Shown: positions 24,965-32,749 of the stretch, piece after piece
How the letters are laid out: each line of letters opens with the position of its first letter
Numbering within the stretch: position 1 is the first letter of the stretch
Assembly: GCA_016939365.1 (NCBI GenBank)
Contig: JAFGHD010000046.1
Coordinates: 1-45,229, forward strand
From: Bacteroidales bacterium
GTDB lineage: Bacteria > Bacteroidota > Bacteroidia > Bacteroidales > JAFGHD01
DNA length: 45,229 nt
Direction of reading: 5' to 3'
Position numbers and translations under genes: made by a program
The notes under the pieces: generated by a model
Database searches by the model: none
Told to the model about the DNA's origin: nothing
The model's input: the letters and a program-made list of their open reading frames with translations, nothing else

Positions 24965-25412
24965 GGCGAAACCTTATTCCGGATCACATGATGGGATTCT
25001 CCGGTCCATTTTCCATACCTTTCACTTGGGGGATGGGAATGGTGGATTCCGTTATCAGACGGGGCACCGGTAACAACCTGACGGGTAGAAAAAAGCTGAT
25101 TTCAACCTCAGGGCTCTGGCCCAAACGTTGAAATACCGGCATCCCGACCAGGAGATACCGGTGCCCTTTCCATATATTCAAAAATTTAAGCAATGAAGAG
25201 ATTTTTCTTTTCAGACTGTCATGTCTGTTTATACTGATCTTTTTTAAACAATCCGTTAAACTTTTCGCCGAAAAAGCAATCCAATGAAGCATAAAAGTTG
25301 TCTTCGATAAAAGCAGCAGGCATACTGAATGGTTTCTTTTGAAGCACTTCATTCTTGGAAGAGGCAATTTACAGGGTGCCCGGAGATGATCAATCGGGTA
25401 AAACGGATAACC
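24965..25412. other. Intergenic stretch, no gene recognised
   Basis: 448 bases between the cold-shock gene and the CotH gene. Open frames here are short and unsupported; the upstream 28 codons of the CotH frame (from 25329) have no signal-peptide character. No clear terminator or TAnnTTTG promoter was found. Confidence 0.4.
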
Positions 25413-27746
25413 ATGAATCGGACATTACTGTTTGGGGCATCCACAGTCTTGTTTTGCTCCGTCTGCCTGAACGCCCAGAACCTCCCGGAACAGTTCCGTT
25501 TCTCTGCCGACGGCCACCGGCTGATACGGGGGGGAGTGGCATCAACGGGGTTTTACGATGAATCCACCATCGACACCATCTTCCTGGAGTTCAGCCAGCC
25601 AAATTACTGGAGTCTGCTCCAGAGCAATTACCAGAGTCAGACCAACATTCCGGCCACCCTGGTATATAAAGGGGTGGTATATGACAGTGTGGGGGTTCGT
25701 TTCAAAGGTCAGACATCATACCAGCAGACACAGTGGTCGCAAAAGAAGTCATTCAGCATCGAAACGGATTATTACATCGATGATCAGAATGTGGAGGGGT
25801 ATGAGACGCTGAACCTGAACAATGGCTTCAATGATCCCTCGTTCATCCGTGAGGTGCTTTACAATAACCTGTGCAGGGACCATATCGCCAATGTCAAGTC
25901 AGGTTATGTGGTTCTTTATATCAACGGGGAGAGCTGGGGGCTCTATCCCAACGTACAGCAGCTGAACAGGGAGCATGTGGCGGAATGGTTCCTGGATGAC
26001 GAAGCGACACGCTGGCGCTGTGAAAAAACGGGAGGAGGAGGACCCGGCGGCATGTTCGGTGCAGGTTTTTGCTCCCTCAATTACCTGGGTATGGACACCA
26101 ACGCCTACAAACCCTATTATAAGCTGCGGGCAGCCTTCAAGGAATACCCGTGGGACGACCTGGTTCATGTCTGTGACGTGCTCAACAACTCCGCAAGCGG
26201 AATCCTTGTGGATACGCTCAATACATGCATGGATGTGGACGGAAGCCTCTGGTACATCGCCCATGAGAGTATTTTCTGCGATGACGACGGTTATATCAAC
26301 AAGGGCGGCATGGATTATTTCGCCTATTTCGATGTGACCACCGGGCGACTCATCCCCATCGAGTATGACGGGAACGAATGTATGCACCTGAACATGGCCA
26401 ATTCATGGTCACCCTTCAAGAATGCATACAATCCCGATTTCGCTTTGCTTTATGTCCTGCTGAATCACTCCGGGATGAGGCAAAGATACCTTGCCCATTA
26501 CCGTACCATCCTCACCCAGTCTCTGGACCAGTCGATGATCACCGGGAAAATTGACGCTTATGCCGCATTGATCGATCAGTATGTTCAGGATGATACCAAA
26601 AAACTATATTCTTACAATCAGTTCCTCAACGAAATAAACGTATTGAAGAACTTCTTCCAGAACCGCAACAATTACCTGTGGAACAATGCCGAGGTGAACA
26701 CCCAGGGATTATCGGTCGCGGATGTGGCCTGGCTGGTGGATGGGGTGGCTTATGCCGCTCCGGACAACACCCAGGAGGTGACAGTAAACGCCAGCGTGAG
26801 CGGAAATTTGGGCATCCATGCCGTCAACCTTTACTTCGGGACAGGCTTCATGGGTTCCTTTGAGAATACCGAAATGTTTGATGACGGTCAGCATGAGGAT
26901 GGTGCTGCCGGAGACGGCGTTTTCGGTGCTTTCATCCCACCGCACAACAGTGCAGAATATGTCAGGTTTTACGTTGAAGCCATTGCCGGCAACACTGCCC
27001 ACACGATCACCTGCGAGCCTGCCGGTGCCGAGCATGATGTGTACATCTGCCAGGTAGCGTATGCATTTGCCCCGGAGGATGTGGTGATCAACGAGCTGAT
27101 GGCTGACAACCAGACCACCGTTACCGATGAGTTTGGGGAATATGAAGATTGGATTGAGTTCTACAATAAAGGCCCAGTTACCCTTGACCTGAGCGGATAT
27201 TACCTGAGCGATAAGGAGGACGACCTGACCAAATGGAGCTTCCCCGACAGCACCTGCCTGGAACCCGACAGCTACCTGATTGTCTGGGCGGATGAAGACG
27301 GTCCGCAGGGAGAAATGCACTGCAATTTCAAACTCTCCGCCTCCGGAGAAGCACTGATCCTGACCAATCCCAATCTGGAGATCGTCGACTCGCTCACTTT
27401 CGGACAGCAGATCACCGATATGGGGCTGGCCCGGGTACCCAACGGCACAGGCCCGTTCATCATACAGGAGCCCACATTTGCCGCCAACAACGAGATCACT
27501 ATCGGGTTGGAGAATGACCTTCTCAACCCGGCATTCTATTTCTTCCCCAATCCGGCCAGCAATGAGCTTTATTTCATGAATGAATCCAGTCAGACCTGCG
27601 AAGTCAATATCTTCAACATTCTGGGCCAACAGGTCAGACAACTTCAGGTCAGGGACAAGTCAATCCTGGATGTTACCGGGTGGCATGAAGGCATTTATTT
27701 CGTTCAGTCCGCTGCAGGATCGCAGAAACTGATCATCCGGAGATAA
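25413..27746 (+). CDS. Secreted CotH-kinase-like protein with lamin-tail and T9SS domains
   Basis: 777 residues from MNRTLLFGASTVLFCSVCLNAQ, a good signal peptide. Domain order: CotH kinase-like domain (about 45-420, with VRFKGQTSYQQTQWSQKKSF, NLNNGFNDPSFIREVL and PIEYDGNECMHLN), a beta-rich linker, a lamin-tail domain (about 556-665: INELMADNQTTVTDEFGEYE, IEFYNKGPVTLDLSGYYLSD) and a T9SS type A domain (about 700-777: FYFFPNPASNELYF to QSAAGSQKLIIRR). CotH proteins phosphorylate secreted proteins in spore coats; secreted Bacteroidota members are of unknown role. An intrinsic terminator follows 36 bases after the stop. Confidence 0.9.
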   Translation: MNRTLLFGASTVLFCSVCLNAQNLPEQFRFSADGHRLIRGGVASTGFYDESTIDTIFLEFSQPNYWSLLQSNYQSQTNIPATLVYKGVVYDSVGVRFKGQTSYQQTQWSQKKSFSIETDYYIDDQNVEGYETLNLNNGFNDPSFIREVLYNNLCRDHIANVKSGYVVLYINGESWGLYPNVQQLNREHVAEWFLDDEATRWRCEKTGGGGPGGMFGAGFCSLNYLGMDTNAYKPYYKLRAAFKEYPWDDLVHVCDVLNNSASGILVDTLNTCMDVDGSLWYIAHESIFCDDDGYINKGGMDYFAYFDVTTGRLIPIEYDGNECMHLNMANSWSPFKNAYNPDFALLYVLLNHSGMRQRYLAHYRTILTQSLDQSMITGKIDAYAALIDQYVQDDTKKLYSYNQFLNEINVLKNFFQNRNNYLWNNAEVNTQGLSVADVAWLVDGVAYAAPDNTQEVTVNASVSGNLGIHAVNLYFGTGFMGSFENTEMFDDGQHEDGAAGDGVFGAFIPPHNSAEYVRFYVEAIAGNTAHTITCEPAGAEHDVYICQVAYAFAPEDVVINELMADNQTTVTDEFGEYEDWIEFYNKGPVTLDLSGYYLSDKEDDLTKWSFPDSTCLEPDSYLIVWADEDGPQGEMHCNFKLSASGEALILTNPNLEIVDSLTFGQQITDMGLARVPNGTGPFIIQEPTFAANNEITIGLENDLLNPAFYFFPNPASNELYFMNESSQTCEVNIFNILGQQVRQLQVRDKSILDVTGWHEGIYFVQSAAGSQKLIIRR

Positions 27747-27901: not shown

Positions 27902-28420
27902 ATGATATCTGGTTTTATGGAATACACGGAAATTTTGATCAACATCCGGAAGATCGTCAGGTCCGTCAACCTGGAATCCAAGAAGATACAAAAGGAGTAT
28001 GGTGTCAGTATTCCGCAGCTGCTCACACTTGGTTACCTGGCCTCCCGGGACAATTACAGGGCTACCCACGCCGAAATCACGAAGTACCTGCATCTGAACT
28101 CCAGCACGGTGACAGGGATCATCAACCGGCTGGAAAACAAGGGTTATATCGCACGGCTGCCGAGACCGGAGGACAGGAGATCGGTTTTTATTGCGCTCAC
28201 GTCGGGAGGTGCGCAATTGCTTGAGAAATCCCCCCGGCTGCTGCATGAAAAGCTATCTGAGAAGTTACAAAGCCTCTCCGTGGAAAAATTGGACGAGATC
28301 AACCGTACCCTGCAAACACTTATCGAGAGCCTTGGCATTGAAAAGATCTCCGCTTCACCCATGGTGACCATTGAGGACTATATCCATCCGCCCGACAACC
28401 CGGACCTGGCCTCATCATGA
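27902..28420 (+). CDS. MarR-family transcriptional regulator
   Basis: 172 residues (Met6 at 27917 is an alternative start). The winged helix spans about 38-115: SIPQLLTLGYLA, recognition helix region LHLNSSTVTGIINRLENKGYI, and the wing RLPRPEDRRSVFIALT with the family-typical DxRS. Flanking helices form the dimer interface, and there is a C-terminal tail of about 25 residues (SPMVTIEDYIHPPDNP) not usual in short MarR proteins. It precedes the acetyltransferase/amidohydrolase/racemase operon in the same direction and is its likely regulator, through the palindrome at 28497-28523. Confidence 0.9.
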   Translation: MISGFMEYTEILINIRKIVRSVNLESKKIQKEYGVSIPQLLTLGYLASRDNYRATHAEITKYLHLNSSTVTGIINRLENKGYIARLPRPEDRRSVFIALTSGGAQLLEKSPRLLHEKLSEKLQSLSVEKLDEINRTLQTLIESLGIEKISASPMVTIEDYIHPPDNPDLASS

Positions 28421-28496: not shown

Positions 28497-28523
28497 TAAT
28501 AATGATATGCATTTTCATTATTA
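28497..28523. promoter_or_regulatory. 27-bp AT-rich palindrome, candidate MarR operator
   Basis: Perfect 9-bp arms TAATAATGA (28497-28505) / TCATTATTA (28515-28523) around a 9-base centre. It lies directly upstream of the -7 box at 28534-28541, across the -33 region, where a bound dimer would block the polymerase. MarR proteins bind such AT-rich palindromes. The assignment to the neighbouring MarR gene is inference. Confidence 0.55.
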
Positions 28524-28533
28524 GAATTTTTTG

Positions 28534-28541
28534 TATTTTTG
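28534..28541 (+). promoter_or_regulatory. -7 box of the GNAT/M20/racemase operon
   Basis: TATTTTTG fits TAnnTTTG. No TTG stands 17-23 bases upstream; the palindrome fills that space. The first intact gene starts 369 bases downstream, after a transporter relic. Confidence 0.55.
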
Positions 28542-28682
28542 TTTGTGTAGAAACATTTGAATTGTATGAGATAAATCCGGCAAATGCCACCCTGCATTCG
28601 TGCCTTTGCGGCCCGGAAAACGACACCGGGATACCCAGATCCAATTCTGATCCGGTTTGGCATTTCATTGATCTGACCATAT

Positions 28683-28870
28683 TTCTAGAGAATATCCTGG
28701 TGCTGGCCATCCTTATCCGGAAAAAAACCGATGCCGGTGCTGCATTCGTCTCGATGACCGCCGGTGGCACCACTACTCTGGCACTCACCCTGGTGGAAGA
28801 ACATCTTCCCCTCGGGCTGGCTCCGAATCTGTTCGGGCTCAGCACCGCCCTGGTTTCATATATTATTTAA
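28683..28870 (+). pseudogene. 3' stump of a sodium/solute symporter (SSS family) gene
   Basis: The frame ending at 28870 reads ENILVLAILIRKKTDAGAAF, VSMTAGGTTTLALTLVEEHL, PLGLAPNLFGLSTALVSYII. The basic RKKTDAGAAFVSMTAGGTTT turn followed by a helix, a short loop with PLGL and a further helix is the pattern of the C-terminal helices of SSS transporters. Everything upstream in this frame is unrelated and runs through the promoter, so only about 60 codons of a normal 500 remain. It lies between promoter and first gene of the racemase operon, suggesting the operon once began with an uptake system. Family call is tentative. Confidence 0.4.
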
Positions 28871-28909
28871 TATCAACACAATAGCATCCATAATAAAAAA
28901 CAGCATATC

Positions 28910-29356
28910 ATGAATTTCAAAACGTACAATCCGGCAGACCCGGCCACACTTCTTGAAAAACAAACGATCATGAGGTTCCTTTTCAAGCACCTGGATGAGT
29001 TTGGAGATTCGGAACAATCCATCATGAACGCTATTGAATATGCCATGAGCCCTCAACCGTCCGCAGGCGGATTCATCCTGCTGGCGATCGACAACGACCA
29101 GATCACGGGTGCCGTCGTAATGAACCGTACCGGGATGCAGGGCTACATCCCTGAGAACATCCTGGTCTATATCGCCGTGCACCATGATCATCGCGGCGAA
29201 GGGCTGGGCAAAGAGCTGATGAAAAGGACCATTGATACGGCCAAAGGCGATATCGCACTTCATGTGGAACCCGATAATCCCGCAAGGTATCTTTACGAGA
29301 AGTTCCATTTCACCAACAAATACCTGGAAATGAGGCTTATTAAAACCGCAAGCTGA
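28910..29356 (+). CDS. GNAT family N-acetyltransferase
   Basis: 148 residues. The acetyl-CoA binding motif A is clear: LVYIAVHHDHRGEGLGKELM (about 81-100) with the RGxGxG-like loop, followed by ALHVEPDNPARYLYEKFHF, the usual motif B. The N-terminal part (MNFKTYNPADPATLLEKQ) is specific to this subgroup. It probably acetylates a free amine, perhaps an amino acid, given that the next gene is an N-acyl amino acid hydrolase. The substrate cannot be read from sequence. Stop to next start: 7 bases. Confidence 0.88.
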   Translation: MNFKTYNPADPATLLEKQTIMRFLFKHLDEFGDSEQSIMNAIEYAMSPQPSAGGFILLAIDNDQITGAVVMNRTGMQGYIPENILVYIAVHHDHRGEGLGKELMKRTIDTAKGDIALHVEPDNPARYLYEKFHFTNKYLEMRLIKTAS

Positions 29357-29363
29357 CGGGGTC

Positions 29364-30509
29364 ATGGATGATAAGCTGAAGGAGGAGTTAAAGGCATTCC
29401 GCCGGGAGCTTCACCAATACCCTGAGGTGTCGCACCGCGAAGAACAGACCGCGAATAGGGTCATCAGTTGGCTCGACAAATGCCATCCAGACCGGATAGT
29501 GGAAGGATTGGGAGGAAATGGCCTGGCTGCGGTATGGGACGGCCGGGAAACCGGTCCGGCGATCCTGTTCCGGTGCGAGCTGGATGCACTGCCCGTCAGG
29601 GAAATATCCACGCTTGCATACCGGTCTGTGTACGAGGGTAAAGGCCATCTGTGCGGTCACGACGGCCATATGGCCATCATGGCAGGGTTTGCTTACCACC
29701 TGCGAAAAAACAGGCCCGGAAAGGGAAGGGTGATCCTGCTGTTCCAGCCGGCTGAGGAAACGGGTGAAGGTGCGGAGATGGTACTGAATGACACAAAATT
29801 CCAATCACTGAAACCCGACAGGGTCTTTGCCCTCCACAACCTCCCCGGGTTCAGGAGCAAATCGCTGGTGCTCGCCGATAGGCTGTTCAGCTCAGCCTCG
29901 GCGGGACTCGAGATACGACTCACCGGCAAATCTTCCCATGCTGCCGAGCCGGAAAAAGGGATCAATCCCGCCCTTGCAGTGGCAAGGATCATCAACTCGT
30001 TCAATGATATGCTGAAAATCAAAGACTTCTTCCATGATTTCATACTGATCACGGTCATCCAGGTAATCCTTGGCGAAAAAGCTTTTGGTACATCTCCGGG
30101 GGATGCCCTGATCAGGGCCACACTCAGGGCTTACACCGATACCGACATGGATAAGCTTCAGCAGATGGCCATAGGGATTGCCGAAAAAGCAGCTGCCGAA
30201 GAGCGACTGCAATTCGATTACCGATTCACCGAGGTATTTCCAGCCACCGTGAACCAAAGGGACACTGTTAAAATATTGGAACAGATAGCCGGCGATAACG
30301 GCTGGGACACGATCAGGATAAGCAAGCCTTTCAGGTGGTCTGAAGATTTCGGCCATTTCACCTCCCGTTTCAAAGGGGCCATGATCGGACTCGGCGCCGG
30401 GATGAGCCATCCAGCACTGCACAATCCTGATTACGATTTCCCGGATGACTTGCTTGAAAAAGGCATTGAACTTTTTATATCCATTTATAAACGTTTCATG
30501 ACATCATAA
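29364..30509 (+). CDS. M20-family amidohydrolase (N-acyl-amino-acid deacylase type)
   Basis: 381 residues, an M20D-like metalloenzyme. Metal ligands of the di-zinc/manganese site are present: Cys97, His99 and His102 in LCGHDGH, Glu131-Glu132 in PAEETGEG, and a His in FALHNLPG (about 157), with a C-terminal His in GMSHPALHNPDYDF. The start MDDKLKEELKAFRRELHQYPE is standard for the family. Such enzymes remove acyl groups from N-acetyl amino acids or hippurate-like compounds. It lies between an acetyltransferase and a racemase, 4 bases before the latter. Confidence 0.93.
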   Translation: MDDKLKEELKAFRRELHQYPEVSHREEQTANRVISWLDKCHPDRIVEGLGGNGLAAVWDGRETGPAILFRCELDALPVREISTLAYRSVYEGKGHLCGHDGHMAIMAGFAYHLRKNRPGKGRVILLFQPAEETGEGAEMVLNDTKFQSLKPDRVFALHNLPGFRSKSLVLADRLFSSASAGLEIRLTGKSSHAAEPEKGINPALAVARIINSFNDMLKIKDFFHDFILITVIQVILGEKAFGTSPGDALIRATLRAYTDTDMDKLQQMAIGIAEKAAAEERLQFDYRFTEVFPATVNQRDTVKILEQIAGDNGWDTIRISKPFRWSEDFGHFTSRFKGAMIGLGAGMSHPALHNPDYDFPDDLLEKGIELFISIYKRFMTS

Positions 30510-30513
30510 CACC

Positions 30514-31665
30514 ATGCCGACCACCTCGCAAATAATACTCGACCCACAGGCACTGGAGGAGAACATCGGCTTCCTCAGGAAGATCATGGGTAAAAGGACA
30601 AGGCTCTCATCGGTCGTAAAAGCCAACGCCTATGGCCATGGCATCGAGCATTTCGTCCCCATGGCGGAAAAAGCCGGCATCGATCACTTTTCGGTATTCA
30701 GCGCCGATGAAGCCATGAGGGTATATCAGGCAGGGTCGGGCAAACAGGAGATCATGATCATGGGATGGCTCGATAAACATGAAATGGAATGGGCCATCCG
30801 GAATGAAATATCGTTCTATGTCTTTGAGCCCGGCAGGCTGATGCAGGCAGGATCGATTGCCAAAAAACACCGCAAGCCGGCCCACGTTCATCTGGAGGTT
30901 GAAACGGGCATGAACCGCACCGGGCTGGCAGGCGGAGACCTGATTAAAGCCTTACGACATATACAAAACTCGTCCGGATTATTCCGTGTCAACGGATTGT
31001 GCACCCATTTCGCCGGGGCGGAAAGCATCGCCAACTATTACCGGATCACCCGACAGATCATGACATTCAGGAAGATACAGGAGAAGGTCCTCCGGGAGGG
31101 TATCAAACCCCGGATACGCCACACGGCCTGCTCCGCCGCAGCTTTGAATTACCCCGAGACCCGGATGGACATGGTGCGCATCGGTATCGCACAGTATGGG
31201 TTCTGGCCGAGCAAGGAGACGTTGATCCATTATCTGCACGATAAAAAAAAGAAGACCGATCCCCTGAAAAGGGTCATGAGCTGGAAGAGCCGGATCATGA
31301 GCATCAAGAAGGTCAGGACCGGCGAGTTTGTCAGCTACGGCACCACTTACCTGGCTCAGGAGGACAAGCGCATCGCCATCATTCCGGTCGGATACTCCAA
31401 TGGATACAACCGCTCCCTCAGCAACCAGGGAAGGGTGCTGATCAGGGGATACCGTGTGGCAGTGATTGGAATGGTGAATATGAACATGCTGATCGCCGAT
31501 ATCACCGCAGTGCCGGAAGCACATATCGGTGACGAGGTAGTGATGATCGGGAGACAGGGAGACCTGGAGATCACCGTCTCATCATTCAGTGAGATCAGCG
31601 AGCAACTCAATTATGAACTTCTGGCCAGATTGCCGCAGAATATCACCCGTATCGTAAATAATTAA
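30514..31665 (+). CDS. alr: Alanine racemase-type PLP enzyme
   Basis: 383 residues, fold-type III PLP enzyme. The PLP lysine is Lys36 in SSVVKANAYGHG and the second catalytic residue Tyr275 in FVSYGTTYLAQED; IPVGYSNGYNRSLSNQG and HLEVETGMNRTGL are also typical. The usual GRVCMD segment reads GMVNMNM, a departure from housekeeping Alr. Bacteroidota usually make cell-wall D-alanine with a MurF-Alr fusion, so a stand-alone copy in a catabolic-looking operon suggests another amino acid. The next gene is a second racemase-like enzyme. Confidence 0.88.
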   Translation: MPTTSQIILDPQALEENIGFLRKIMGKRTRLSSVVKANAYGHGIEHFVPMAEKAGIDHFSVFSADEAMRVYQAGSGKQEIMIMGWLDKHEMEWAIRNEISFYVFEPGRLMQAGSIAKKHRKPAHVHLEVETGMNRTGLAGGDLIKALRHIQNSSGLFRVNGLCTHFAGAESIANYYRITRQIMTFRKIQEKVLREGIKPRIRHTACSAAALNYPETRMDMVRIGIAQYGFWPSKETLIHYLHDKKKKTDPLKRVMSWKSRIMSIKKVRTGEFVSYGTTYLAQEDKRIAIIPVGYSNGYNRSLSNQGRVLIRGYRVAVIGMVNMNMLIADITAVPEAHIGDEVVMIGRQGDLEITVSSFSEISEQLNYELLARLPQNITRIVNN

Positions 31666-31675
31666 ACCATTTGCC

Positions 31676-32749
31676 ATGGCCTATATAGAGATGTACCGGG
31701 AGAAGATAGTGCATAATTACCGGTTCCTGGACAATCTGTTCAAAAAGAACCACATTCACTGGGGTGTGGTTTCCAAGCTTCTTTGCGGAAACCACCTCTA
31801 CCTGAAAGAACTGATTTCTCTCGGGATCAGGGAGATCCACGATTCCAGGCTGAGCAACCTGAAGGTGATCAAAAGGATCGATCCCGACATCCAGACCGTC
31901 TACATCAAACCCCCGCCCAGGAGAAGCCTCCGGAGTATCGTGAAATATGCAGATGTCAGCTTCAACACGGAGTTCGAGACGATCCGGATGATCTCTGACG
32001 AGGCTACCCGCCAGAACAAGAAACACAGGATCATCATTATGATCGAGATGGGCGACCTCAGGGAGGGGGTGATGGGCGACAGGCTGGTGGAATTCTACTC
32101 CCGGGTGTTCAGATTACCCCACATCGAGATCATCGGGCTCGGGACCAACCTCAACTGCCTGCATGGCGTCATGCCGTCGCACGACAAGCTGATCCAGCTG
32201 AGCCTCTACAAGCAACTGATCGAAGCCCGGTTCAATAAAAAAATACCGTGGGTCTCGGGGGGAACATCTGTGGCCATACCCTTGCTTCAGAAAAAGCTGC
32301 TGCCCAAAGGAAACAACCACTTCCGCATCGGTGAGACCCTGTTCCTCGGCAACAACCTCATCACAGGGGAACCCATCAAGGGGATGAAGCAGGATGTGTT
32401 CAGGCTGCATGCCGAGATCATCGAGCTCTATGAGAAACCGAAGGTGCCCATGGGGGAAATCGGCACCAACGTAGCCGGAGAGACACCTGATATCAATGAA
32501 AGCGACTATGGCAAAACATCCTGGCGGGCCATACTCGACCTGGGCCTGCTCGACATCAGTATGGACAACATCTTCCCTGAAGACAAAACCATCCGGTTTT
32601 CGGGGGCCAGCTCCGACATGATCGTCCTCGACCTCGGGGAGAACAGAAGGAAATATAAATCCGGCGGGCTGGTCACCTTCCGGATGAACTATATGGGCAT
32701 CCTCAGCCTGCTGAGCTCAAACTATATCGGAAAGAAGGTGGTGGGCTGA
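31676..32749 (+). CDS. Alanine/ornithine racemase family PLP enzyme (Orr-like)
   Basis: 357 residues of the ornithine racemase / YhfX-like branch of fold-type III. The PLP lysine is Lys34 in WGVVSKLLCGN; other family segments are EIHDSRLSNLKVIK, IMIEMGDLREGV, IIGLGTNLNCLHGV, WVSGGTSVAIPLL and HFRIGETLFLG. Clostridial ornithine racemase makes D-ornithine for oxidative degradation; the substrate of this one is not known. It is the last gene of the operon (10 bases after alr) and ends at a hairpin. Confidence 0.9.
   Translation: MAYIEMYREKIVHNYRFLDNLFKKNHIHWGVVSKLLCGNHLYLKELISLGIREIHDSRLSNLKVIKRIDPDIQTVYIKPPPRRSLRSIVKYADVSFNTEFETIRMISDEATRQNKKHRIIIMIEMGDLREGVMGDRLVEFYSRVFRLPHIEIIGLGTNLNCLHGVMPSHDKLIQLSLYKQLIEARFNKKIPWVSGGTSVAIPLLQKKLLPKGNNHFRIGETLFLGNNLITGEPIKGMKQDVFRLHAEIIELYEKPKVPMGEIGTNVAGETPDINESDYGKTSWRAILDLGLLDISMDNIFPEDKTIRFSGASSDMIVLDLGENRRKYKSGGLVTFRMNYMGILSLLSSNYIGKKVVG

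Follow-up and report, generated by a model that had tools for sequence, protein, structure and literature searches.

A conserved acetyltransferase-racemase gene pair in Bacteroidota, with deacylase, second-racemase and symporter accessories, as a possible amino-acid salvage unit

Results

An acetyltransferase, a deacylase and two racemases in a tight operon

We analysed an acetyltransferase/deacylase/racemase operon on a 45,229-nucleotide contig (JAFGHD010000046.1, assembly GCA_016939365.1) from a Bacteroidales bacterium of the lineage JAFGHD01; this whole stretch is referred to as the window. Four intact genes lie on its forward strand with gaps of 7, 4 and 10 bases: a GNAT N-acetyltransferase (28910-29356, 148 residues; Pfam Acetyltransf_7/1, 46 bits), an M20 family amidohydrolase (29364-30509, 381 residues; TIGR01891 199.8 bits, cut-off 153.75), a stand-alone Alr-family pyridoxal 5'-phosphate (PLP) racemase with an Asn-Met-Asn (N-M-N) signature (30514-31665, 383 residues; TIGR00492 301 bits, cut-off 168) and an Orr-like PLP racemase (31676-32749, 357 residues; NF040742 317.7 bits, cut-off 480). 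A family-4 uracil-DNA glycosylase gene on the opposite strand closes the unit. The initial annotation of this locus had described four genes of these families packed with gaps of 4-10 bases; the family names agree with the profile scores, with the Orr-like protein staying below the Orr cut-off, and the tight gene set is confirmed. As set out below, the GNAT and Orr-like genes form the core of a unit that is widely shared in Bacteroidota, and the M20 and Alr genes are accessories that are kept together.

The GNAT and Orr-like genes form a two-gene core

We used two independent whole-genome searches of 395 genomes from across the phylum, one with the Orr-like protein (E <= 1e-60) and one with the GNAT (E <= 1e-25), to determine how often the two genes occur together. 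Each was found in 62 genomes and both in 61, the exceptions being one genome with Orr only (G667) and one with GNAT only (G400); this co-occurrence has a Fisher p of ~1e-69 when the relatedness of the genomes is ignored. In 59 of the 61 genomes the two genes share a contig and a strand, and in the other two they are split between contigs. They are separated by 163 bases or less in 52 of the 61, by an insert of 2.3-2.5 kb in five, the window included, and by an insert of ~1.4 kb in two, where the intervening gene is a symporter (L209) or an unrelated frame of 399 residues (L208). The linkage between the GNAT and Orr-like genes exceeds chance. Carriers include Flavobacterium, Pedobacter, Pontibacter, Algoriphagus, Fulvivirga, Mangrovivirga and Salibacter, and among 295 sampled genomes of the window's own taxonomic order the Orr-like protein (E <= 1e-60) was found in 59.

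The same association was seen closer to the window, in the best 80 of 588 relatives with named records, a set whose counts lean towards the window's kin. The GNAT gene is among the five genes that precede Orr in 75 of these 80 loci, and in all 72 loci that have at least 2.5 kb of upstream DNA. A genus mate of the window (G001) has MarR-GNAT-Orr without M20 and Alr. GNAT and Orr are thus the two-gene core of the unit, and the proposal that the genes would be kept together in related genomes holds both in the 80 near loci and in 60 phylum-wide runs. Other neighbours that recur in the 80 loci were considered as additional members and rejected, as by eye they are only lineage neighbours.

Accessory genes join the core in several gene orders

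The 60 phylum-wide runs of contiguous genes exclude the window, the Orr-only genome and the GNAT-only genome, and were scored with identity limits of 45% for the symporter and 33% for the M20 protein. A GNAT was counted in 57 of them; G547 also has a GNAT, and G688 and G443 have one on another contig. A sodium:solute symporter is present in 41 runs, the M20 gene in 26, an M23-like gene in 23 and the Alr gene in 22, always with M20. The M20-Alr pair is therefore an add-on to the GNAT-Orr core, found in 22 of the 60 runs, and not part of one fixed set of four genes as had been supposed.

The accessories join the core in at least four gene orders. Symporter-GNAT-Orr-M23-M20-Alr was seen in 11 of the 60 runs, symporter-GNAT-M20-Alr-Orr (the window's type) in four, GNAT-Orr-symporter-M20-Alr in three and M20-Alr-symporter-GNAT-Orr in one, with further orders among the remainder. 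We also built a quick tree of 104 Orr-like proteins, leaving out three duplicates (L180, L184, L192) and one distant sequence (L028). On this tree the window-type arrangement changes 17 times, at least nine of them by starred branches, where the label counts Alr only when it lies upstream of Orr and scores orders with Alr downstream as being without it. That the genes have been rearranged and are still linked points to a working connection between them rather than to a frozen neighbourhood.

The M23-like protein (~195-240 residues, by eye without a leader) lies 3' of Orr in many genomes, for example at L126:9142-9753, L127:9068-9748, L128:9068-9796 and L130:9083-9691. Among 30 copies whose M23 motifs were checked, all 30 keep H-x-G-x-D and 29 keep P-H-L-H. 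The L128 copy is similar to the central part of PRK06148 and scores far under the cut-off of that model. Flavobacterium daejeonense DSM 17708 (L086) is a cultured carrier of the full set, in the order symporter-GNAT-M20-Alr-Orr. A Persicobacter plasmid (CP012861, L139) carries symporter-GNAT-M20-Alr-Orr, with Orr cut by the end of the stretch, together with a second GNAT-Orr pair ~13 kb away.

The window retains the end of a symporter gene

The initial annotation began the feature at position 28497, within a 489-bp stretch. The four genes stand, but this stretch is more than intergenic DNA: it contains the remnant, missed in that annotation, of a sodium:solute symporter gene at 28694-28909 on the forward strand, comprising the last ~70 of ~480 residues with one stop. 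When 42 symporters of more than 430 residues from the 80 related loci were compared with the window by tblastn, 38 matched this place (best E 3.4e-15, 44% identity), and in the 12 best rows the matching part was their last ~55-70 residues. The genome search returned the same place with 42% identity and one in-frame TAA; no other symporter of the genome exceeds 28% identity, and the remainder of the window's symporter gene is gone. As many relatives have an intact symporter gene just 5' of GNAT, the lineage of the window has therefore lost the transporter and kept the enzymes. We attempted to assign a substrate to the symporter by homology and rejected the result, which consisted only of distant matches to glucose, choline, iodide, monocarboxylate and multivitamin symporters; the symporters also score below the cut-off in the PutP/sss models.

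Upstream of the remnant lies a gene for a MarR-family regulator (27902-28420, forward strand, 172 residues; Pfam MarR 52.3 bits). A similar MarR was found in 10 of the 80 nearest loci and in none of the 60 phylum-wide loci, so that control of the operon by MarR, presented earlier as a trait of the system, is not a general one; MarR is a local partner in some near relatives only. A family of proteins of ~97-155 residues occurs just 5' of the symporter or GNAT in seven of the 80 loci (L058, L059, L061, L066, L077, L079 and L123), mostly after MarR, and the L058 and L061 copies gave no Pfam or NCBIfam match. Riboswitch control of the window's operon was considered and rejected, because Rfam gave no match in the window; in six other loci searched the only matches were a transfer RNA in L130 and a fluoride riboswitch in L096.

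The GNAT, M20 and Orr-like proteins keep their catalytic residues

The acetyl-CoA loop of the GNAT, R95-G-x-G-x-G100, is invariant in 21 of 21 sequences, and the structure model has a GNAT fold with a predicted local distance difference test score (pLDDT) of 90.4. PHROGs returned generic acetyltransferase families only. In the M20 protein C97, H99, E131, E132, H158 and H353, which we take to be the metal site, are invariant in 16 of 16 sequences. Its nearest solved sequences are YxeP (E 6.4e-38) and a plant indole-3-acetic-acid-amino-acid hydrolase; against the model for the N-acetyl-diaminobutyrate deacetylase DoeB2 (NF038260) it scores 190.4 bits, below the cut-off of 550.

The Orr-like protein scores 317.7 bits with NF040742 (317.3 in the genome search) and does not reach the curated cut-off. 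K34 is invariant in all 104 Orr-like proteins, and K34, R129-E130-G131, N158, C161, R217, E250 and K254 are common to all six outside sequences with which it was compared. D288 and L292 are fixed in 104 of 104, where canonical Orr has A and Q. The structure model (pLDDT 88.6) can be superposed along its entire length on broad-specificity, lysine and alanine racemases, with Z 25.6-26.4, root mean square deviation 2.8-3.4 and 322-330 residues aligned in the first ten rows, which are tied. By sequence no solved relative was found at E 0.001, and PHROGs gave no family for Orr. Judged from the residues that are kept, the GNAT, M20 and Orr-like enzymes look active. RacX of a Flavobacteriales isolate was considered as a relative and rejected, being presented as related to EcL-DER, a PLP-independent racemase, and so a different enzyme (PMC12838360).

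The operon Alr is a second, divergent racemase

The initial annotation had drawn attention to a variant segment, GMVNMNM, in the stand-alone Alr, and this was read correctly. We aligned 57 operon Alrs (56 different) with 30 MurF-fused Alr rows (27 different), using by alignment the residue numbers of the Geobacillus enzyme where that enzyme is referred to. All 57 operon Alrs keep K36, R135, R222 and Y275, comprising the PLP lysine, two arginines and the catalytic tyrosine. All 57 also have Asn at N322 and N324, which correspond to Cys311 and Asp313 of the Geobacillus enzyme, and 56 have Glu at E128, which corresponds to Lys129; Asn at the Asp313 position, which broad-spectrum racemases also have, is thus present in every one. 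The MurF-fused rows have at the equivalent positions Cys in 29 and Ser in one, Asp in all 30 and Lys in 28. The window's Alr therefore passes the curated TIGR00492 score and has the catalytic residues but lacks the C/S-M-D segment with the carbamylated lysine. N-M-N was also found in 28 of 28 Alr frames from the phylum-wide loci and four others, and in seven of seven orphan Alrs outside the operon.

Of the 30 MurF-fused rows, 27 lie in open frames of 804-1016 residues and three in frames of 535, 629 and 707 residues; a 298-residue Alr fragment (L167) was left out. When 11 of the rows were scanned, the MurF-Alr model was the best match for all 11 and exceeded its cut-off in 10. Such a fusion is also present in the window's own genome (NF008897 1118 bits, cut-off 804; cut by a contig end), and the operon Alr is hence not the only alanine racemase there, as the initial annotation had anticipated, but a second, divergent, non-housekeeping one. 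At least two Alr C-terminal domains were found in 35 of 40 genomes searched, namely 39 chosen for having the operon or part of it and the genus mate G001, which has a MurF-type Alr only; two pairs among the 40 give identical places and look like the same genomes.

In solved alanine racemases the substrate carboxylate is bound by an arginine whose position is set by a carbamylated lysine, usually together with Ser or Cys (PMC3146814). The Glu and Asn of the operon Alr would, from the alignment, be a different solution from the carbamylated lysine. The Asp-to-Asn change lowers D-cycloserine affinity 240-fold in the Mycobacterium tuberculosis enzyme and is natural in broad-spectrum racemases, and the authors suggest a possible effect on substrate specificity (PMC10288493). 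The earlier view that the Alr likely serves another substrate is strengthened to this extent, that the variant segment is fixed in the group and touches positions tied to substrate binding.

Two of the N-M-N orphans (L183:5638-10105 and L187:1606-6087) adjoin an L-amino-acid-ligase-like ATP-grasp protein and a 664-residue protein. The L183 ATP-grasp copy matches 4wd3 (E 5.4e-8), the 664-residue protein of L183 and L187 has no Pfam match, and a search of the window's genome with the L183 ligase-like protein found none. By eye, a similar ligase-like set directly follows GNAT-symporter-Orr at L082:9148 onward.

Some other Orr relatives neighbour DUF1611 or a different GNAT

We viewed 12 relatives of the Orr-like protein outside Bacteroidota. 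In six, from Vibrio lentus, V. parahaemolyticus, V. europaeus, Ruegeria, Aliiroseovarius and Phaeobacter, a DUF1611 gene lies directly 5' of Orr with a 4-base overlap. DUF1611 is, we assume, the family of DgcN, the D-glutamate N-acetyltransferase. These DUF1611-Orr pairs (L141, L200, L201, L202, L203 and L204) are plasmid-borne, and in Ruegeria, Aliiroseovarius and Phaeobacter three hypothetical genes of similar sizes also lie upstream. Roseateles has an Orr domain joined to an arginase domain in one protein, and its gene adjoins one for a D-amino-acid dehydrogenase and is near one for a guanidino-oxopentanoate decarboxylase. The Acetoanaerobium copy is 37% identical to the Orr-like protein, in a neighbourhood that we read as an ornithine aminomutase operon. 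Two Bacteroidota relatives of another subtype (34-36% identity) were also found: in G667 (L210:4913-7731) a DUF1611 gene is followed by Orr and then by a D-Ala-D-Ala dipeptidase-like gene, and in G020 (L028:7379-9036) the Orr relative overlaps a GNAT of a different type (PF00583, 31.5 bits) by a few bases. The pairing of an Orr-type racemase with a neighbouring acetyltransferase has therefore probably arisen more than once, from unrelated families, which supports a coupling of acetylation and racemisation.

Discussion

A possible salvage unit coupling racemisation to acetylation

The gene set described here is real and widely shared in Bacteroidota, and it apparently has no name: in line with the initial annotation, which knew of no named pathway with this set, the searches made of the open-licence literature gave no name for the genes or their chemistry. 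We suggest that the operon serves specifically to salvage amino acids, outside housekeeping metabolism, by linking racemisation with N-acetylation and deacylation, a reading to which we give a probability of about 0.45. It rests on the co-occurrence of GNAT and Orr, the kept catalytic residues, the separate MurF-Alr fusion, the Asp-to-Asn change in the operon Alr and the racemase-like fold of the Orr-like protein. In this scheme the Na+/solute symporter of many relatives would import a partly D-configured amino acid or N-acyl amino acid. The free amino acid would be brought to equilibrium between its D and L forms, on PLP, by the Orr-like racemase and, where present, the N-M-N Alr. The GNAT would acetylate one form or one amine, spending acetyl-CoA so that net flow became one-way, and the M20 enzyme would strip acyl groups to leave a usable L form. 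The direction of flow and the order of acetylation and racemisation are conjectural. Our best guess for the substrate is a basic or diamino acid of the ornithine, lysine or diaminobutyrate type; known members of the Orr family favour basic amino acids, a preference that does not in itself identify what the window's enzyme uses. The coupling chemistry put forward in the initial annotation is a plausible proposal, and its interpretation was right in outline, its errors being the fixed four-gene set and MarR as the general regulator.

Several observations weigh against the salvage reading. GNAT and Orr stand alone in 17 of the 60 runs, and the full route is consequently not needed everywhere; in the window itself the symporter is broken. 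Four draft carriers (G304, G305, G306 and G313) show only one Alr, the stand-alone operon type, which may be due to draft incompleteness. The nearest solved folds of the GNAT are varied general amine acetyltransferases and give no pointer to amino acids. As D288 and L292 differ from canonical Orr, ornithine specificity cannot be carried over to the Orr-like protein, and in the other four of the 12 outside relatives, from Salmonella, Vescimonas, Ilyobacter and an unannotated Photobacterium stretch, no annotated or recognised acetyltransferase partner was seen beside Orr. Finally, a GNAT and an M20 enzyme acting on one substrate would make a futile cycle unless their specificities or timing differed.

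A more specific and bolder form of the salvage reading, which we regard as doubtful, is that the genes encode an unnamed route, driven by acetyl-CoA, that deracemises basic or diamino D-amino acids and is present in ~15% of the sampled genomes of the phylum. Here the GNAT and Orr-like enzymes would be extended by the Na+ symporter, the M20 enzyme, a Bsr-like Alr and the M23-like protein, as a convergent counterpart of the DgcN-type route for acidic substrates.

Alternative explanations

The alternative that survives best is biosynthesis of an N-acetyl-D-(di)amino acid end product, such as an osmolyte, an exported signal or a precursor, with Orr and Alr forming the D isomer, the GNAT capping it, and the M20 enzyme and symporter recycling it. 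Such a role would suit the 17 runs in which GNAT-Orr occurs without deacylase or symporter, as well as the N-M-N Alr orphans next to the ligase-like ATP-grasp and 664-residue proteins (L183, L187 and, by eye, L082). However, the frequent presence of a symporter (41 of 60) and of a deacylase (26 of 60) fits uptake and use better, and we consider biosynthesis unlikely.

We also considered detoxification, in which the GNAT would inactivate a toxic D-amino acid or cycloserine-like analogue, and the divergent racemases would be insensitive to it or remove the toxic isomer. The operon Alr has at Asp313 the same change by which the M. tuberculosis enzyme loses affinity for D-cycloserine 240-fold, but this change is also natural in broad-spectrum racemases (PMC10288493); the window has a MarR regulator, but none was found in the 60 phylum-wide loci. 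Furthermore, the MurF-fused Alrs keep the Asp in 30 of 30 rows, so that enzyme would stay sensitive, and the deacylase would reverse the protection. Detoxification is therefore distinctly improbable.

Anaerobic ornithine fermentation, with the Orr-like protein feeding an ornithine aminomutase pathway as in Acetoanaerobium, would account for the NF040742 match and the 37% identity to the Acetoanaerobium copy. The score is nevertheless below the family cut-off, and D288 and L292 replace the canonical A and Q in all 104 proteins. No ornithine aminomutase genes lie beside the window's Orr, where the neighbours scanned are MarR, CotH, RRM, DUF3108, GNAT, M20, Alr and uracil-DNA glycosylase genes, the relatives not having been scanned for them. 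Flavobacterium and Pontibacter, which are aerobes, are among the carriers, and fermentation is accordingly very improbable. It is hardly more credible that the Alr is an ordinary spare D-alanine supply among unrelated neighbours: the TIGR00492 score and the sole Alr of the four draft carriers would fit, but the window's genome has its MurF-Alr fusion, 35 of 40 genomes have at least two Alr C-terminal domains, the signature differs at fixed positions, and the gene is linked to the others in several orders.

Relation to known systems

In the DgcN-DgcA route an acetylation step is linked to inversion of a D-amino acid, by a DUF1611 acetyltransferase and an enolase-type racemase. The window's operon shares this acetylation-plus-inversion logic but falls outside that route, since its enzymes are unrelated: a GNAT, an M20 enzyme and PLP racemases that need a free alpha-amine. 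In Bacillus, the YxeL/YxeP type of salvage acetylates, processes and then deacetylates its substrate, and it too combines a GNAT with an M20 deacylase, YxeP being the nearest of the solved proteins to the window's M20; the window's operon differs in having two racemases and no monooxygenase. The DgcN-DgcA route is named in PMC12363236 and PMC10845958 and has been described as a pathway that irreversibly racemizes acidic D-amino acids and the amides of these.

Orr of the Clostridium/Acetoanaerobium ornithine pathway belongs to the same PLP racemase family as the Orr-like protein and shares its core residues; the latter differs in its sub-threshold score, its fixed D288 and L292 and its pairing with a GNAT. 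The broad-spectrum racemases BsrV, Bar and Lyr have the same natural Asp-to-Asn change as the N-M-N Alr (PMC10288493), and the Orr-like model matches such enzymes at Z 25.6-26.4, tied with alanine racemases. The operon Alr differs in having Glu for Lys129 together with Asn at 311, and relative to Bar chain 4dyj it is without ~39 extra N-terminal residues (aligned from residue 9 versus 48).

Refractory organic matter contains D-amino acids as an important component (PMC12363236), and to our knowledge their use by Bacteroidota is poorly mapped. At present, separate models for acetyltransferases, 'ornithine racemase' and 'alanine racemase' each pick up single parts of this unit, so that recognising it as a whole would put many annotations right. 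A stand-alone Alr gene in Bacteroidota does not necessarily encode an enzyme of the cell wall. The GNAT-racemase pair also provides a short list of enzymes on which the pathway question turns.

Two minor observations were made on the sequences analysed. Directly 5' of MarR in the window lies a gene for a CotH kinase-domain protein (25329-27746) with a lamin-tail domain and a type 9 secretion tail. A contig labelled Candidatus Nealsonbacteria (L126) has an operon layout near-identical to those of two Balneolales bins (L127 and L128), with which it also groups on the Orr tree, and is probably a mis-binned contig.

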